A stretch of 64,000 bases of DNA. It comes from a virus. A program made the translations under genes and the position numbers. The number at the start of each line of letters is the position of its first letter. Within the stretch, counting starts at the first letter, position 1. The stretch is from IMG/VR virus record IMGVR_UViG_3300023174_000042, positions 186,001 through 250,000 of that record. One strand, written 5' to 3'. The notes beneath the pieces are model-generated. The model had not been told where the DNA came from and did not search any database. It saw only the letters and a program-made list of their open reading frames with translations. Below, in pieces: positions 45,640-61,655 of this stretch.

Positions 45640-46500
45640 TTACATAAACTTACTTATATAGTAATCAATCAATTCCTTAATTGGCTCGATTAACAATTTA
45701 GGATATTCATTATTTAAAAAATTAATTAGTTCTGAAATAGACTCAAAACTTTTTGGGGTATAACTTGTTTGAAAACCTTGATTGTCATACATATCATAAT
45801 AATCACCAGATTCCCTATCTTCAAAATATCCTCCTTCAACAGGAGTTCTACACTCACCATTCCAATAAGGTGTTGCAAACCCACTTAACATGTAGTCTGG
45901 ATTGTAATATTCAAAAGTAATAGCACCACCAAAAGTGTCCCAATTTAGAACTAAATCTACAGTTCCGTCATCAAAACTATGTTTTTTATTTACTAAATCA
46001 GTATAATTAAAAAGTATTCTAACTAATTTTTCAGCAAAATCACAATTAATATGCATTTTTTTATCTTTTAATAAAAAAATTATTTGTTCTAAAGATAATC
46101 CTGTCAATTCTGAAATTTCTTTAAAATCCATACCATCATTATACATTTTATAAATGAGTTTTGAATTTTTATCAAAAGTTGATTCATTAATATTTTTTTC
46201 TAAACGAGACATAAAGTAATCTTTAATTTTCGTGTAATATTCATTTGTAATATATCGTTGGGTTTGGTTTCTTAATGTCACTTTTTCATCTCCTGTAAGT
46301 TTTGTTTGATTTGCAATTTCATTTGCTAATTTCATTACAACAGTGGATTCAAATGAACGGTAAAGTCTTTTGTCTAAAGGAGTGTTATAATTACCTTGTA
46401 AGTAACTGTAGACTAAATCCATAGTAGGATCAATTAATCTTTCAATTTCACCGATTCGTCTAATAAGACCAAGTTGATTTTCTGAAATTAATATTTTCAT
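45640..46500 (-). CDS. Tagged protein with helix-turn-helix-like segment
   Basis: The 286-residue protein begins MKILISENQLGLIRRIGEIE (ISE; MKII.TEDQ tag class). Residues about 120-150 (YNDGMDFKEISELTGLSLEQ) read as a helix-turn-helix. The C-terminal domain is Tyr/Gly/Asp-rich (GGYFEDRESGDYYDMYDNQG). It could bind DNA, but regulation is not shown. Confidence 0.75.
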   Translation of the reverse strand: MKILISENQLGLIRRIGEIERLIDPTMDLVYSYLQGNYNTPLDKRLYRSFESTVVMKLANEIANQTKLTGDEKVTLRNQTQRYITNEYYTKIKDYFMSRLEKNINESTFDKNSKLIYKMYNDGMDFKEISELTGLSLEQIIFLLKDKKMHINCDFAEKLVRILFNYTDLVNKKHSFDDGTVDLVLNWDTFGGAITFEYYNPDYMLSGFATPYWNGECRTPVEGGYFEDRESGDYYDMYDNQGFQTSYTPKSFESISELINFLNNEYPKLLIEPIKELIDYYISKFM

Positions 46501-51416: not shown

Positions 51417-51836
51417 TTAGAAATCCTCTTCTTTAAAATACATATCAATAATATCTGAGAATCTTAAACCCATTATTGCGATTCCAAGTTGTTCGGGTAT
51501 TTCATTTTCAATATATATATTTCCATTCTCATCAATAAACTTCTCATGATCCCCCACATCTAAATAAAGATATTTTTTCCCGTCAAGTTCAAAAAGATAC
51601 ATAGGTCCATATTTGTTTAAATAACGATTAATCAATCCAGGTGAAATATATCCAGCAAATTCCATTGGAATATCATAAGTTGAGGTTATTTGTTGAATGC
51701 CATTTGTAAAATCAATACCCAACTTGTTTTTTAAAAACTTTTTGTTTTTTTCTAACATAGAGTCATTTTCACTAATCACTCGTTTAACGAGGTTAGTTAA
51801 TTGTCCGTATTGATCTTCAGTTATAATGATTTTCAT
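51417..51836 (-). CDS. Tagged protein homologous to polyprotein module 3
   Basis: Start ATG 51836: MKIIITEDQYGQLTNLVKRV then ISEN (ISE site). The product is 139 residues. NKKFLKNKLGIDF, ISPGLINRYLNKYGPMYLFE and a final IIDMYFKEEDF align with residues about 303-414 of the 57199-60255 polyprotein (NKNFIKNKLGIDF, ISNDWLNRFMNNHGPCYLMK, IVDLFFNEEN). The same domain therefore exists both as a single tagged protein and as a polyprotein module. Confidence 0.85.
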   Translation of the reverse strand: MKIIITEDQYGQLTNLVKRVISENDSMLEKNKKFLKNKLGIDFTNGIQQITSTYDIPMEFAGYISPGLINRYLNKYGPMYLFELDGKKYLYLDVGDHEKFIDENGNIYIENEIPEQLGIAIMGLRFSDIIDMYFKEEDF

Positions 51837-51854
51837 ATTAGATAAATATAATGG

Positions 51855-51893
51855 AAAATAAAAAACCCCACTCTTATGAAGATGGGGGTTTAG
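51855..51893 (-). terminator. Intrinsic terminator after 51910-52341
   Basis: CCCCCATCTTCATAAGAGTGGGG followed by TTTTTTATTTT on the minus strand. Confidence 0.75.
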
Positions 51894-51909
51894 TAATAAC
51901 AATATGTTT

Positions 51910-54029: not shown

Positions 54030-54905
54030 TCATACAAAATATAACCTTAAATATTCTGATCTTATTGTATCTATGATTGGGTAACCGCCAATTGAAGAAA
54101 TTATAAGTTCTAATTCATTGTTTAAATCATTAAGTTCTCCTTTTTTTACGATTTCTCCTAGTAAAACTGGATTTTCGTCTTCCCATCCGCTGTTTGAAGG
54201 AAAAGGTTTATATTCATGATACTCTCTCCACCGTTTTTCTCCCCACTTTTCATCTACTTTTAATTTGCCGTGAATTGTTATTTTATGAAAGAATTCATCA
54301 TAACTAATATGATTTATTTCTATTTTTTTAAACCACTTAAATTTTTTTGGTATTATTTTATTTATTACCGTTTCTACATTAAAATCTTCTTCTGAATTTT
54401 TGGCTTCTTTTAATGTTTTATTTTTTTTTTTAACACAATTAGGGTATCTTTTACCAAACATAGTTTTCATTCCTTTTTGAGTATATCCTTTCCAACATTT
54501 TTCTGTAAGTTCGCCTTCTTTCATTTCTTGTTGGTTATCAGACATACTTCCCACTATTTGATTATATCTTTCTTTTATTCTACTACCATAATGTCTAAGA
54601 AGTGGTTTTCTAATTTTATCATAATAGAAATCGTCGTCCTCAAAATATATACGGTTATCATTGGTGAAATAATCTTGTTCTAAATATGTTACCATCTCGT
54701 CAATAACAAATTTCGCAAATAACCATAGAGTGGTTCCTTTTTCTTTATATATAACAGAATTTGGGTTTTCCATTGATTCACTCATTCTATCTAATGCGGA
54801 TTCAAATGCCTCTTCTATAATTTCAGTTGATATTCTTCTTATAATAACAGGAGGTATATGTGTTTCTTCTCTTAATACTTTTCTGATATGTTCTTGTAGG
54901 TTCAT
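54030..54905 (-). CDS. Tagged two-domain protein with KCWKGY motif
   Basis: The 291-residue protein begins MNLQEHIRKVLREETHIPPV (LRE site). Domain 1 is helical. A linker contains GELTEKCWKGYTQKGMKTMF then GKRYPNCVKKKNKTLKEAKN, offering LTE and LKE sites around a conserved basic KCWKGY peptide that I know from other large phages. Domain 2 starts about residue 172. It looks like a two-module version of the 1018-residue polyprotein. Confidence 0.82.
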   Translation of the reverse strand: MNLQEHIRKVLREETHIPPVIIRRISTEIIEEAFESALDRMSESMENPNSVIYKEKGTTLWLFAKFVIDEMVTYLEQDYFTNDNRIYFEDDDFYYDKIRKPLLRHYGSRIKERYNQIVGSMSDNQQEMKEGELTEKCWKGYTQKGMKTMFGKRYPNCVKKKNKTLKEAKNSEEDFNVETVINKIIPKKFKWFKKIEINHISYDEFFHKITIHGKLKVDEKWGEKRWREYHEYKPFPSNSGWEDENPVLLGEIVKKGELNDLNNELELIISSIGGYPIIDTIRSEYLRLYFV

Positions 54906-55345: not shown

Positions 55346-55942
55346 TTATAAATCACTTTTAACCATATTATAGAAATACTCACTAACCTTTTCAGGTGAG
55401 TTTATATTCATTCTTCTCATTTGATTTTTATGTTGTTGAACCATCATAGATACTTGTTGTATTGGAAGGTTCTTATACATTTGTGGTGATCTAAAATTTT
55501 TACTTATCAGATCTTTTTTTTGTAGTTGTCTTATTTTTCTTCCTGCGAACTCATCGGCAACTTCTTCTGTATGTTTCATAAAGTCGGCAGCTTCCTCATT
55601 GGATAGTTCCCCAATATAACAATCATACATTATATTTTCACCATACTTTTTAAATTGATATTGGTGAGAAATCTCGTGGAAGATAACAAATAACGCATCT
55701 TCCAATCTACGACTAAGAATTTGTTTGTTGATCAAAACAACATCGTGTAATGCCAAACCTAAAACAGGTATTTTGAAATTGGAAAACTCAATTTTTTTAC
55801 AATCTGAATTCTCAATAAATTTAACAACCTCATCTTTTAACTCATCTGAAATATTAAAAGCATCGGACAACTCATTTATAAAACTTGATATTCCTTCAGT
55901 TTCTTCCTTTAATATTCTTCTTATTTGTTCTTGTAGGTTCAT
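55346..55942 (-). CDS. Tagged zinc metallopeptidase-like protein (HEISH)
   Basis: Start ATG 55942: MNLQEQIRRILKEETEGISS (LKE site), with GATATTTATTTGATATG upstream. The product is 198 residues. ALFVIFHEISHQYQFKKYGE gives HExxH (H89, E90, H93). A downstream helix HTEEVADEFAGRKIRQL has the ExxxD/E third ligand pattern. Likely a small peptidase delivered or acting with the virion (inference). Confidence 0.82.
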   Translation of the reverse strand: MNLQEQIRRILKEETEGISSFINELSDAFNISDELKDEVVKFIENSDCKKIEFSNFKIPVLGLALHDVVLINKQILSRRLEDALFVIFHEISHQYQFKKYGENIMYDCYIGELSNEEAADFMKHTEEVADEFAGRKIRQLQKKDLISKNFRSPQMYKNLPIQQVSMMVQQHKNQMRRMNINSPEKVSEYFYNMVKSDL

Positions 55943-55955
55943 ATCAAATAAATAT

Positions 55956-56213
55956 CTAAAAAACTTTAAATTGACAGGTGATATAAAAATCAAATGGAAA
56001 CATATTTGACATATCTTCTTCTAATTGTTTTAGTATATTCAACTCTCTTCCTTTTGTTCCAAAAAACTTATGAGCTTTTTGTGCTGTATTGCAGTGCAAA
56101 GTAATAAAAACAATTTTTTGATTGTCGTTATATCTAAATTTTAAATCATCATAATCATGTGGAACAATTAACTTAAAATAATCTAATATGACTTTATCTA
56201 ATTTATTTTCCAT
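55956..56213 (-). CDS. Small hypothetical protein
   Basis: The 85-residue protein begins MENKLDKVILDYFKLIVPHD. Alpha/beta composition and length match single modules of the polyprotein at 57199. It overlaps 56198-56500 by 16 bases, so translation is coupled. No tag. Confidence 0.7.
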   Translation of the reverse strand: MENKLDKVILDYFKLIVPHDYDDLKFRYNDNQKIVFITLHCNTAQKAHKFFGTKGRELNILKQLEEDMSNMFPFDFYITCQFKVF

Positions 56214-57198: not shown

Positions 57199-60100
57199 CT
57201 AATCCCAATAACCAATTTGAATTGTTTCCATCATCCAAGAAAGAATTGATAATAACTCTTCATTAGTTAAGCTGTTAATTGTTGTTAGGTATTGGTCTTT
57301 TGTTATCCTCTGACCATAATTATCTTCATAATATTCCCATATTTCAACAGCAATTTGGTCGCTATCTTGAACCATAATATCATAAATTAATTTGGTATTA
57401 CTTAGTCGTATTTTTAGACCAAAAAGAGAACCACTATTTTTACTACTCATCCCATCATGTTCTAAAACATATTCTCTAATATATTGTTTAATTATTTTTT
57501 TTGGATTGTCTATTTTATTTAAAATTGATTTGACTTGATTGAAGTCTAATCCTGACATTTCAATAAAGTTGTATAATCCGTCTTTTTCTATAATTTTTTG
57601 TAATGATTGTTTTTTATTATCCGATTCATTTATATTTTTATCAAAATGTATGTGATATTTGAAATTAAGTGGAAATATATCAAGATCCTCCATAACTTGT
57701 TTTCCTACTTTTTTAATAACTGAGTTAATTCCACCACCCAATTTGACGGACTCAACTGGATCAAAAAATATATTTACAATAACATCATCAAATTGTTCAT
57801 CGTAATATAACATGAATTTTTTTACACTCAGATATTCGTTGGAGTTTAAATAATCTTCTACATTTTGAATCAATTTATTAAACTTTCTTTCTTGTTTAGA
57901 TTCGTCAGATTCGTTTATAACATTACCTTCATCATCATATTTTATTTTTTGAACATCAATATAAAGGTCTGCATTTTTATATTTCCAATCCCAACCGTAA
58001 CCCCACCATGGAGATAAAATAACACCATCTCCTGTCAGTTCCATAATTTCATCTATTATTTTATGTGTAAACCAATTATCGTAGTTTGCTGCGGTATCTT
58101 CCACATCATGAAAGACTTTGATAAGTGGTTTTCCTTGATAATTTGTATCGACTTCAATAAATTCAACCTCATCAAAAAGATTATAAATCATTTCTTTTAC
58201 TAACTTAAGTTTTTTATCTTCTGATTTATTTTCTGATTCCATCAAATCATCTATTTTTTGACATTTTGTTGTGTCATACGCTAAATAAAGATTATCAACA
58301 ATTGGAAAAAAATCTTTTATCATTTTTTTTATCTCGGTTCTTGTTTCGTGAAATGTAAAAGGTCTAAATTTGTTTTTTTTGTATTTTAGAATCAATCTTA
58401 AAGAAGGTTTTTCAGAATATTTTGAATCAAAAAAACTATCTATTTCAATCCCACATAACAATTCTTTATCAACGACACTGTATACCATGTCATTTAAAAG
58501 TTTTTCATATTTTGAAAAGTCATTATGTTCAAATTTACTTTCTGATTCCACAAGTTCTGAATCTTCCCTTAATGTTCTTCTATTAGGTGAATCTTCAGGC
58601 CAAGAATTTAAAATATCTTCACTACTTCCTGTCCCTTCATATTTTAAAGTTATCGCCTCTTTTGGGATATCTTGAAATGTTACAATATGTTTTGACCTTG
58701 ACTCAAAATGTCTATCTTTAAACCATTTAACATCTGGAATCTTTGTTGTGTCAATAAACCAAATGTCGTCATCATATGTTGAATCAAACCAAGCTCTTTT
58801 GTTTGTTGAGTTGGTTGCAAAAATTGCTGGTTTACATTTAACCCCATAACCCACATATATTTTATAACATTCTCCGGCTCTTACTTTAAGACCGTTTTCC
58901 ATTATCTTATCTCTGAACTTTGGATTGGATTTATGGACAACAATCTGATTGGGTTTTACTTCTTTACCCGCCGGACTATAATCTTCGTTTTCGTTTAATA
59001 CTTCATCAGAATTTTCTTCATTAAAAAATAAATCCACAATAGTTTTAAGTGAAATTCCTGTGTGGTCAATTTTAATTTTTTCTGTATATTCTCGGTCTGT
59101 ATAATTTAAACCGTCTTCACTATCTATAACTAAACCTTCATCACCATTACCCGTAATATATAAAGGATTGTATAAGATATATTCTTTATTAATTTTCATT
59201 AGATAACAAGGACCATGATTGTTCATAAATCGGTTTAACCAATCATTTGAAATAAAATTAAAAGTTTGCCACGGTAAATCCCAAGCACTTTGAACTAATT
59301 CTATTTTACCATCGAAATCAATTCCTAATTTGTTTTTTATAAAATTCTTATTTTTTTCTTCTAACTTATTTTCATTTAAAAAACTATTTTCTTCTTCATT
59401 ACAGTTCGAAGTTTGTTCTCCACGAACACCAATTACTACTCCTGTATAAGTTGCAATTTCTTTTGAAATGTCATCTAAAACTTCAATATACATGTTTCTT
59501 ATACCTTGTGTCATGGGCCAAAGTTTTGTTCCGTAACCTCCAATAAATAAAACTGTAACTTCAGGTATATTAAAAACTTCGTTTAATGTGATTTCATAAG
59601 AACAAATGATATGATTATATTCAGGAAGTATTAGGTCTTCCATAATCATTTTTGTTATTTTTAAAAGTTTTTTTAAATCCTTTTCACTTTTGTTTGAACT
59701 TTCATTTAAACTTTCAGATTCACCATAAAGTTTGTTGTGTATTCTTATCACATCTTTTTTTGAAAAAGAATATTCATCCTCATGTATATCGACATCTTTT
59801 CCGTTTATTTGTTTAATATCAAAATAATTGGAGTCTTTAAAATTAAGTGTTTTTGTTTTTATTTTTCCTGTGGTATTATCGTTTTGAATTACGGCGATTA
59901 TGGATTTTAAAGTTTCATTTTCACTTGGACTTAATTTATCTTCGTCATAAATAAGATTTAATTCAGGCCAAGAATTTGTTTCCGATATATTTTTTCTAAT
60001 GTTTATTATTTCATACTGAAGTGGAAATACGATAGGTTTTGGGTCTCTGAAATAATCATATACTGAAAAATCAACAACACCTGTTAAATCATCTAATATT

Positions 60101-60255
60101 TCAGAAAATTCAGGATCATTCTTGAATGCTTTTTTGAGGTTTTTTAATCCTCCAACCATGTCAATAGCATCAAAGATACCATTATCTTCAATAACTTGTT
60201 TCAACTCTTGTTGGAGTCTATTTTCTTTTAAGATATGTCTAATCAGTTCTCTCAT
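57199..60255 (-). CDS. Tagged 1018-residue polyprotein of about eight modules
   Basis: It begins MRELIRHILKENRL (LKE). Six further module joints carry [I/L]-x-E within Ser/Asn/Asp/Glu/Lys-rich linkers: LNE 183-185, LNE 293-295, LNE 420-422, LRE 562-564 with LVE 568-570, LME 671-673, INE 780-782 and INE 875-877. Modules are about 95-175 residues. Module 3 matches the stand-alone 51417 product. Modules 1 and 8 share IE(D/K)xG(I/L)(F/Y)xxI(D/E)MxG. Module 4 resembles an ADP-ribosyltransferase-like fold (VVHKSNP, IFATNS, FDSTYDDDIWFID). Cleavage is inferred, not shown. Confidence 0.88.
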   Translation of the reverse strand: MRELIRHILKENRLQQELKQVIEDNGIFDAIDMVGGLKNLKKAFKNDPEFSEILDDLTGVVDFSVYDYFRDPKPIVFPLQYEIINIRKNISETNSWPELNLIYDEDKLSPSENETLKSIIAVIQNDNTTGKIKTKTLNFKDSNYFDIKQINGKDVDIHEDEYSFSKKDVIRIHNKLYGESESLNESSNKSEKDLKKLLKITKMIMEDLILPEYNHIICSYEITLNEVFNIPEVTVLFIGGYGTKLWPMTQGIRNMYIEVLDDISKEIATYTGVVIGVRGEQTSNCNEEENSFLNENKLEEKNKNFIKNKLGIDFDGKIELVQSAWDLPWQTFNFISNDWLNRFMNNHGPCYLMKINKEYILYNPLYITGNGDEGLVIDSEDGLNYTDREYTEKIKIDHTGISLKTIVDLFFNEENSDEVLNENEDYSPAGKEVKPNQIVVHKSNPKFRDKIMENGLKVRAGECYKIYVGYGVKCKPAIFATNSTNKRAWFDSTYDDDIWFIDTTKIPDVKWFKDRHFESRSKHIVTFQDIPKEAITLKYEGTGSSEDILNSWPEDSPNRRTLREDSELVESESKFEHNDFSKYEKLLNDMVYSVVDKELLCGIEIDSFFDSKYSEKPSLRLILKYKKNKFRPFTFHETRTEIKKMIKDFFPIVDNLYLAYDTTKCQKIDDLMESENKSEDKKLKLVKEMIYNLFDEVEFIEVDTNYQGKPLIKVFHDVEDTAANYDNWFTHKIIDEIMELTGDGVILSPWWGYGWDWKYKNADLYIDVQKIKYDDEGNVINESDESKQERKFNKLIQNVEDYLNSNEYLSVKKFMLYYDEQFDDVIVNIFFDPVESVKLGGGINSVIKKVGKQVMEDLDIFPLNFKYHIHFDKNINESDNKKQSLQKIIEKDGLYNFIEMSGLDFNQVKSILNKIDNPKKIIKQYIREYVLEHDGMSSKNSGSLFGLKIRLSNTKLIYDIMVQDSDQIAVEIWEYYEDNYGQRITKDQYLTTINSLTNEELLSILSWMMETIQIGYWD

Positions 60256-60899
60256 TAATATAATCCTCTTAATCTATCATACTCAACGTTACGAAGTTTT
60301 TCTAAATATGTTTTTTCAATCCATCCTGGACTTTCTTCTTCTTGTTTCATTATGGCATCTCTTCTAAAAAGTGTGGTTTTAAGAATAAGTTCTATCATAT
60401 CCTCCTCAGTCACGCCTTCAGGTTTTGTCATTGGTGGAACACAAGTTTGAGCATCTCTATCATCTATATTAAATTCAGAAATATGAATGTCATTTCTACC
60501 CATCTTACTTTGAATTTCACCTAAATAGGTGTCGTCAAACCATTCTTCAAAAAGGTATTTTAAGTAACTTGCTCTAACAGGAATATCAGACATCAACTCT
60601 TTAAATATATCATTTGGAATATAAATTGAACCTGATTCAAAATCTCTTTCTTCAGTTTTTCTTCTATCGTCAAAAACATCACTATTATCTTCAAAAAATA
60701 ATATAAATTTCATTATTTCTTTTCCATGATTACACCATTCAAAATCATGTCTTGTTTCCCACGATTTGTCATGATACATTTTTGCACCATCAAAATAGTT
60801 GTTTAACCACCTATAAACAAGTTGTTCTACCTTTGGTGTAGGTTTAGAATATTTTCTAGTAACCTCATCTTCTAATATTAATTTAATTAAATTTCTCAT
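60255..60899 (-). CDS. Tagged hypothetical protein (LILED tag)
   Basis: The 214-residue protein begins MRNLIKLILEDEVTRKYSKP (ILE site). The body includes IYIPNDIFKELMSDIPVRAS then YLKYLFEEWFDDTYLGEIQS, related to the 50936-51331 product, and a C-terminal helical part (GVTEEDMIELILKTTLFRRD). It overlaps the polyprotein start by one base. Function unknown. Confidence 0.8.
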   Translation of the reverse strand: MRNLIKLILEDEVTRKYSKPTPKVEQLVYRWLNNYFDGAKMYHDKSWETRHDFEWCNHGKEIMKFILFFEDNSDVFDDRRKTEERDFESGSIYIPNDIFKELMSDIPVRASYLKYLFEEWFDDTYLGEIQSKMGRNDIHISEFNIDDRDAQTCVPPMTKPEGVTEEDMIELILKTTLFRRDAIMKQEEESPGWIEKTYLEKLRNVEYDRLRGLY

Positions 60900-61333
60900 C
60901 TAAATTTAAATCTATCTGGTTCTAATTTTTTTATATCGTTAAATTGATCTTTAACCGTTAAATGCTCAGGAAGCATTTCATAAATGTCATTTAATTCTTG
61001 TTTTATTTTTTTATAATCTTCAAACATTTCATCACTTGTCATTTCATTTTTAATATTTAATATTGAAACGGCATATGGATAATCTTCGTTGGATAATTCA
61101 TTTTGGTATCTTTTGTGATAGGGGTTTAAGTCACTATTATAAAATTCTTTTAGTTTTTTTATATCACAAATAATATTAATATCAATTGAAAAATTACCAT
61201 CATTACCTAATTCCCACCCAATGATAAATGGATAAGTTTTTTTTATTATTTTAATTACAAGGTCAATTCCTTTTTCAAGAGTTTTTGAATCATCCGTTTC
61301 TTCTTTTAATATATGTCTAATCAGTTCTTTCAT
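60896..61333 (-). CDS. Tagged hypothetical protein (MKELIRHILKEE tag)
   Basis: The 145-residue protein begins MKELIRHILKEETDDSKTLE (LKE site). It is followed by a single alpha/beta module (IDLVIKIIKKTYPFIIGWEL, then FSIDINIICDIKKLKEFY) like the polyprotein modules. It overlaps both neighbours by 4 and 17 bases. The first 14 residues are identical to those of 61317-61655. Confidence 0.82.
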   Translation of the reverse strand: MKELIRHILKEETDDSKTLEKGIDLVIKIIKKTYPFIIGWELGNDGNFSIDINIICDIKKLKEFYNSDLNPYHKRYQNELSNEDYPYAVSILNIKNEMTSDEMFEDYKKIKQELNDIYEMLPEHLTVKDQFNDIKKLEPDRFKFR

Positions 61334-61655
61334 TACACATTACTTGTTCTAAAAACTTTTTAATTGTTCTAACTATTTTTTGTCTGTCAGGATCATTCTC
61401 ATTTGAGAAATTATCAACAGGTTCAATAACATTATTTTCTTGTAACATATTCAAAATTTTTTGTATTTGTCTTTTTTTATTATCAAAATTAGAAATTGAG
61501 TAATATTTATCATCTATATTAAAGTAAATTGTTTCGAATTTGAATGTTTCGAGATCAATTTCTTTTTTTTGATATCTTCGAAGCAAAAAATTCATAACTA
61601 TCTGATCAATCTCTTCAGTTTCTTCTTTTAATATATGTCTAATTAACTCTTTCAT
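61317..61655 (-). CDS. Tagged hypothetical protein (MKELIRHILKEE tag)
   Basis: The 112-residue protein begins MKELIRHILKEETEEIDQIV. The body (FLLRRYQKKEIDLETFKFET and onward) could be a small winged-helix-like domain. Tag identical to the next gene's despite unrelated bodies. One-base overlap with 61655-62089. Confidence 0.8.
   Translation of the reverse strand: MKELIRHILKEETEEIDQIVMNFLLRRYQKKEIDLETFKFETIYFNIDDKYYSISNFDNKKRQIQKILNMLQENNVIEPVDNFSNENDPDRQKIVRTIKKFLEQVMCNERTD

Follow-up and report, generated by a model that had tools for sequence, protein, structure and literature searches.

A tagged multi-unit protein of a T4-type jumbo phage, probably cut at its joints by the prohead protease into about eight internal proteins

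A chain of eight units behind one N-terminal tag

The window analyzed here (64,000 bases, 186001-250000 in a virus record of 272,576 bases) carries a minus-strand gene at 57199..60255 which, based on its ATG start, open frame, and translation, encodes 1018 aa. This bears out the 1018-residue product of an initial annotation, in which no strand had been given. Related proteins in other phages are between 436 and 1056 aa long. T4-type capsid-targeted proteins have a short N-terminal tag ending in [I/L]-x-E, and this product meets that description with MRELIRHILKE^N (tag residues 1-11, 60223..60255, minus strand; ^ marks a predicted cut). The same type of capsid-targeting-sequence-like tag is common to neighboring genes, among them the single-domain genes at 60896, 61317, and 61655.

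Eight modules, all encoded on the minus strand, follow the tag. Module 1 (residues 12-185, 59701..60222) occurs elsewhere as free tagged genes of 180 aa (in L138 and L180; L-numbers are our labels for the sequences compared) or fused to module 2, module 8, or one of the units X and Y found in relatives, and ends in the joint site LNE^S (residues 183-185, 59701..59709), which relatives keep before modules 1, 2, 8, X, and Y. Module 2 (186-295, 59371..59700) and module 3 (296-422, 58990..59370) both end in LNE^N (293-295, 59371..59379, and 420-422, 58990..58998). Module 4 (423-564, 58564..58989) also occurs on its own in L179, L183, and L184, in tagged genes of 134-146 aa. Its joint with module 5 holds two sites, LRE^D (562-564, 58564..58572) and LVE^S (568-570, 58546..58554), and a complete tag stands after module 4 in L157 (LQESIRRILRE) and L185 (LQESIRSILRE). 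Module 5 (565-673, 58237..58563) ends in LME^S (671-673, 58237..58245), and relatives likewise have LME^S or IME^S before module 6. Module 6 (674-782, 57910..58236) and module 7 (783-877, 57625..57909) both end in INE^S (780-782, 57910..57918, and 875-877, 57625..57633); relatives keep NVINE^S at the first of these before module 7 or X, and INE^S at the second before module 8, X, or 2. Module 8 (878-1018, 57202..57624) is usually C-terminal, as it is in most relatives, and has a free 139-aa form in L185. All nine [I/L]-x-E triplets listed in the initial annotation, LKE^N at residues 9-11 and then eight joint triplets through INE^S at 875-877, lie where it had placed them, and the joints read, in order, LNE, LNE, LNE, LRE/LVE, LME, INE, and INE.

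Bare [IL]xE was not significantly enriched in the protein (22 occurrences vs 16.4 by shuffle, p 0.08), while [IL]xE[NSD] was (12 vs 3.7, p 2e-4). The density of the longer motif, 11.8 per 1000 aa, compares with 2.6 in the rest of the phage proteome, counted beyond residue 40, and the only other phage protein of at least 300 aa to reach it is the presumed scaffold. Module interiors contain 13 further [IL]xE triplets and three [IL]xE[NSD].

The prohead protease and the capsid site

A gp21-type S77 prohead protease gene (PF03420, E 1e-23) lies at 184046-184774 of the record, 1.4 kb past the left edge of the window, near a Gp23-family capsid gene at 180236-182143. Between the two is the presumed scaffold gene (182170-183693 of the record, L002:16170-17693, minus strand), which has no match in Pfam or PHROG and carries a long Met/Asp/Glu-rich repeat stretch. 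Portal and terminase genes are inside the window. The protease gp21 of T4 cleaves after L/I-x-E and cuts the scaffold gp22 into many pieces (PMC9026906). At the capsid position matching the end of the T4 propeptide the phage reads FLINE^ASSDG, and the triplet INE is present in 77/77 sequences (76 relatives and its own), although no cut has been observed; the capsid propeptide end and the joints of the 1018-aa protein thus carry the same motif. We searched 17 module-bearing records of 100 kb or more and found an S77 gene in 13 (6/6 in one set, 7/11 in another). It was not found in the other 4/17, which may be incomplete.

Modules are permuted, dropped, duplicated, or free in related phages

Searches with the whole protein found no relative in IMG/VR, in 50,697 phage records, or in Pfam/PHROGs. 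Relatives were reached only through free module 3, through module alignments, and through the records behind them; for module 8, a single-sequence search gave no result and an alignment-based search succeeded. Module 4 had no relative among bacterial genome contigs. Independent records hold the same kind of gene, and we rejected an assembly artifact.

In residue direction, the window protein has the order 1-2-3-4-5-6-7-8. The order is 1-2-4-6-7-X-8 in L139 and L176, 1-Y-2-4-6-7-X-8 in L157 and L172, 1-Y-2-6-4-6-X-?-8 in L164, 4-5-Y-7-2-X in L138, and 6-Y-2-4-6-X in L180, with shorter chains in L141 (1-Y-Z-8), L140 (1-X-8), and L189 (1-8). Across the sequences of related phages, then, modules are permuted, dropped, duplicated, or present as single tagged genes.

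The initial annotation had reported one free module within the window and had proposed looking for relatives in which modules are separate genes. The former is real: a free tagged copy of module 3 at 51417..51836 (minus strand, from ATG; open frame 51417-51902) shares 38% identity with module 3 across 116 aa (E 9e-24), and the end of its tag (...VISE^NDSMLEKNKKF) lines up with the joint preceding module 3 in the long protein (...FLNE^NKLEEKNKNF). Module 3 is free in other records too, and modules 1, 3, 4, and 8 were all found free and tagged, so that the existence of units as independent proteins elsewhere, a property sought in a polyprotein, holds for these four.

A protease-type site at nearly every joint

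We examined 48 module-bearing proteins of related phages, with 71 joints of 30 neighbor types, measuring each joint stretch with a 12-residue widening to the left and comparing it with 2000 within-joint residue shuffles. The motif [ILM]xE was present in 70/71 joints (37 by shuffle, maximum 50) and [ILM]xE[NSDE] in 66/71 (16 by shuffle, maximum 29). Because the sequences are related, the count of one joint per neighbor type is safer, and by that count [ILM]xE[NSDE] occurred in 27/30 vs 7.4 by shuffle. If a polyprotein is to have a conserved protease site at each joint, this condition was met in 70/71. Joints contained 41.9 sites per 1000 aa, compared with 3.6 for module cores, and the commonest sites among the 71 joints were INES, LNES, LMES, and MNES.

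Since the library modules had been cut at the window protein's own sites, kinship would account in part for conservation at homologous joints. New neighbor pairs provide the independent evidence; in them an identical unit start is read directly after the site behind different partners; the unit start ^SEEKQPKY, for instance, follows module 1, 6, or 7, each time directly after [IL]NE. In aligned homologous joints the P1 Glu was kept in 84% of pairs, compared with 66% for other linker Glu, and hydrophobicity showed no better conservation at P3 than at the remaining I/L/M positions of the linkers. At the DNA level, 64 joint sites comprised 42 distinct 12-base versions, with Ser drawn from both the TCN and AGT families near background use. 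Site DNA this varied suggests selection on the protein, not on a recombination sequence. When raw BLAST ends were first tested as breakpoints, the excess was only modest (29-32% within 5 aa, compared with 11%), and the joint test took over because alignment ends are noisy among paralogues.

Predicted folds and kinship of the modules

The full-length AlphaFold model was poor (pLDDT 52.6), and we dismissed its Foldseek matches to ribosomal and ring proteins as not meaningful. The initial annotation would have been contradicted by triplets lying within folded cores; in this low-confidence model, which makes the test a weak one, joint sites were 72% coil compared with 19% for other [IL]xE, and the contradiction did not arise. 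Modules 2, 5, 6, and 7 are predicted to share an alpha-beta-beta-alpha order, with an extra following strand in 2, 6, and 7. Profiles support paralogy among modules 2, 5, X, and Y (module 5 to module X, hhalign E 1.4e-7) and, weakly, module 6. The kinship between modules 1 and 8 that had been proposed received only weak support (31 columns, hhalign probability 13%), and 2, 5, X, and Y are the better-supported paralogues. For most modules, Pfam/PHROGs searches gave no known fold or family.

Module 4 has no family match at the sequence level. A model built with 18 relatives (pLDDT 62.5) gave Foldseek results in which the 20 best PDB matches were all KptA/Tpt1 RNA 2'-phosphotransferases (probability up to 1.00, best E 8.7e-4); PARP14 and DarT came next, without significant scores. 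The predicted fold of module 4 is of ADP-ribosyltransferase-superfamily type (KptA/Tpt1-like), recalling T4 Alt; we do not infer an activity.

Growth by fusion of tagged genes

Some joints retain a whole internal tag, from which it follows that tagged genes were fused to build up the polyprotein. Module 4 of L157 is preceded by DDLQE^SIRKVLRE^EDYSPAGKE, and free module 4 genes, for example that of L179, begin MNLQESIRRILRE^. A module 3 gene of L139 repeats its own tag internally as QLTNIVKRVISE^NDSM. The domain of the free tagged gene at 61317..61655 (minus strand) is fused, with its tag kept, in L157, L173, and L189, and stands behind module 1 in L142. Other tagged genes of the window are fused elsewhere with the tag retained inside (60896 in L170, 54030 in L139). 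A free tagged HExxH protein, metalloprotease-like, at 55346..55993 (minus strand) is the last polyprotein unit in L181 (57% identity, E 5e-83), where its tag is likewise retained. In L142, the genes at 65189 in window numbering (just past the right end) and 62141 form one gene of 945 aa. The window also contains a second, two-unit fusion at 45640..46500 (minus strand) with NINE^S at its joint, the units of which are separate in L147/L141 and L138/L140.

Fusion and shuffling are thus found in the sequences themselves, with inner tags having shrunk to the cut site after fusion. As an origin, we propose that separately tagged internal-protein genes would have been fused in frame repeatedly, their inner tags being reduced to the cut site, and that the units would then have been shuffled at these sites.

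Several further features were seen among the tagged genes. At least 33 genes of the whole 272-kb record, especially in window 42000-64000, match one or another of several N-terminal tag patterns (M..LIR.ILKE, MKRI.RLTESDL..IVKRVI.E, MKIIITE.Q, and MNLQE.IR.ILKE), which suggests that presumed head-packaged proteins number in the dozens. The 55346-55993 product contains FHEISHQYQF (HExxH) and is a candidate packaged metalloprotease. The motif TEKCWKGYTQKGMKTMFGKRYPNCVKK lies between two units of both window 54030-54905 (minus strand) and L142:7985-9229, in a stretch matched by several PHROGs of unknown function. In L178:4479-6313, a stretch recalling, by eye only, the N-terminal part of cyanophycin synthetase lies in the same open frame as the tag and module 4 that come after it.

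A probable head polyprotein and alternative readings

The protein had been interpreted as one gene placing about eight units in the head under one tag, with a gp21-type protease cutting between them, and this interpretation is supported by the S77 gene, the matching capsid motif, the reordered or free tagged modules and internal tag remnants of relatives, the site at 70/71 joints, and the mostly coil setting of the joint sites in a low-confidence model. From these we infer targeting, cleavage, virion presence, injection, and function, taking the role of the tag by analogy with T4. We put the probability that a T4-type jumbo phage here encodes a head polyprotein, a tagged chain cut at its joints by the S77 protease into about eight internal proteins, at roughly 0.8 on the sequence evidence. 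As inferred from T4, the 11-residue tag would bring the entire chain into the prohead core. The S77 protease would then cut after [I/L]-x-E, removing the tag and severing each joint, as the motif, its conservation, and the capsid site suggest. About eight small internal proteins of 95-174 aa, one of them ADP-ribosyltransferase-like, would be released and may stay with the DNA in the head and enter the next host. Relatives have these units singly, in another order, or swapped, always with such a cut site where they join, so that a single gene probably supplies the virus head with a set of proteins to be injected.

The chain could instead be packaged and remain uncut, as a multidomain injected protein that, in the manner of polyvalent proteins or T4 Alt, loses only its N-terminal tag. 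The joint motifs would then be leftovers of fused tags and serve as flexible linkers. Such relics are to be expected, as the fusions clearly come from tagged genes, and phages do have polyvalent proteins (PMC5512222). We nevertheless find this unlikely: most joints are no longer tag-like beyond the [IL]xE^S core, this core persists at 70/71 joints despite drift of linker sequence and codons, and the joint site matches the capsid site INE.

Still less probable is that neither the tag nor the sites serve as head signals at all and that the protein acts in the cell, with another localization or an assembly role and another meaning of the motif. None of the proteins has been localized and most modules lack a known fold or family, which leaves room for such a role, but the motif is identical to the gp21-type site in the capsid protein of this same phage, the length and ending of the tag fit the T4 capsid-targeting rules (10-19 residues, PMC9026906), and the cultured relative immuto has similarly tagged genes. 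Finally, the abundance of S, N, D, E, and K in the linkers and the evident shuffling of modules might suggest that the joint motifs are not protease sites but a product of linker composition or a seed for recombination at the DNA level, but we rejected chance composition on the within-joint shuffles (16/71 vs 66 observed) and a DNA recombination motif on the highly varied site codons and the two serine codon families, and consider this scarcely credible.

Comparison with described systems

The head polyprotein that we propose resembles the T4 internal proteins IPI-III and Alt, which have a short N-terminal tag ending in [L/I]-x-E and depend on an S77 protease, and in which ten tag residues suffice for capsid targeting (PMC9026906). 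The T4 capsid propeptide of Gp23 is cut at the same motif (PMC9026906); here the capsid site is inferred from sequence. Alt is an injected ADP-ribosyltransferase (PMC9026906), which module 4 resembles by predicted fold. In T4, however, each internal protein has one gene and one tag (Alt also has a C-terminal cut), whereas here about eight units stand under one tag with sites between them.

Repeated cleavage of a single substrate by the prohead protease is known from the T4 core proteins gp22, gp67, and gp68 and from the propeptides of phiKZ and SPN3US (PMC9026906, PMC5694885, PMC10052503). The pieces of those proteins are scaffold or propeptide and are mostly cleared, unlike the conserved, exchangeable units described here, which also exist free. 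Polyvalent proteins of phages and conjugative elements have 2-15 domains per chain, including ADP-ribosyltransferase and metallopeptidase domains, are predicted to be injected with DNA, and have been likened to polyproteins by their authors (PMC5512222). Their release has been proposed to occur via embedded metallopeptidases (PMC5512222), in contrast to the head-protease sites at joints and the capsid tag found here. An embedded metallopeptidase is not evident in the present case: no peptidase family matched in the window polyprotein, and an HExxH unit occurs in one relative, L181.

So far, the prohead substrates known to be cut at several places have been scaffolds or propeptides (PMC5694885, PMC10052503), and no described phage system that we found matches. 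In the open literature (subscription journals were mostly outside the scope of our search) we found no phage polyprotein cut at its joints by the prohead protease. If cleavage is confirmed, this would be, within the literature searched, the first phage polyprotein with units separated by the head-maturation protease, and exchange of cassettes bounded by cut sites would be a route for evolving injected proteins. If the reading is true, it shows a tailed phage loading many effectors under one tag in a fixed ratio, provides a sequence rule by which the injected proteins of uncultured phages could be spotted, and points to a means of loading multi-protein cargo into phage heads.

Host and phage lineage

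The host is probably a Bacteroidota bacterium, because Flavobacterium phage immuto is among the nearest cultured capsid relatives (41%) and has genes with similar tags; it probably lives in freshwater. A place close to the moraphages is possible for the lineage; these are aquatic jumbo phages of up to 307 kb with T4-type head genes, a prohead core protease, and predicted Bacteroidota hosts (PMC12619734). The moraphage paper does not contain the words internal or polyprotein and so does not describe such proteins (PMC12619734). With less assurance than for the polyprotein itself, we favor the broader view that a widespread lineage of Bacteroidota jumbo phages uses its prohead protease as a general polyprotein processor, with genes fused and shuffled at [I/L]-N-E^S joints and one tag delivering a changeable, equimolar set of effectors to the head and then to the host.

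In immuto itself (L201, MW353175 95000-144000), several hypothetical genes have tag-like starts (for example MENTFDLKKFLVE^NK, MADNFNLRSFLTE^NK, and MKKSQLRQIIKE), and this cultured phage could therefore serve as a test system.
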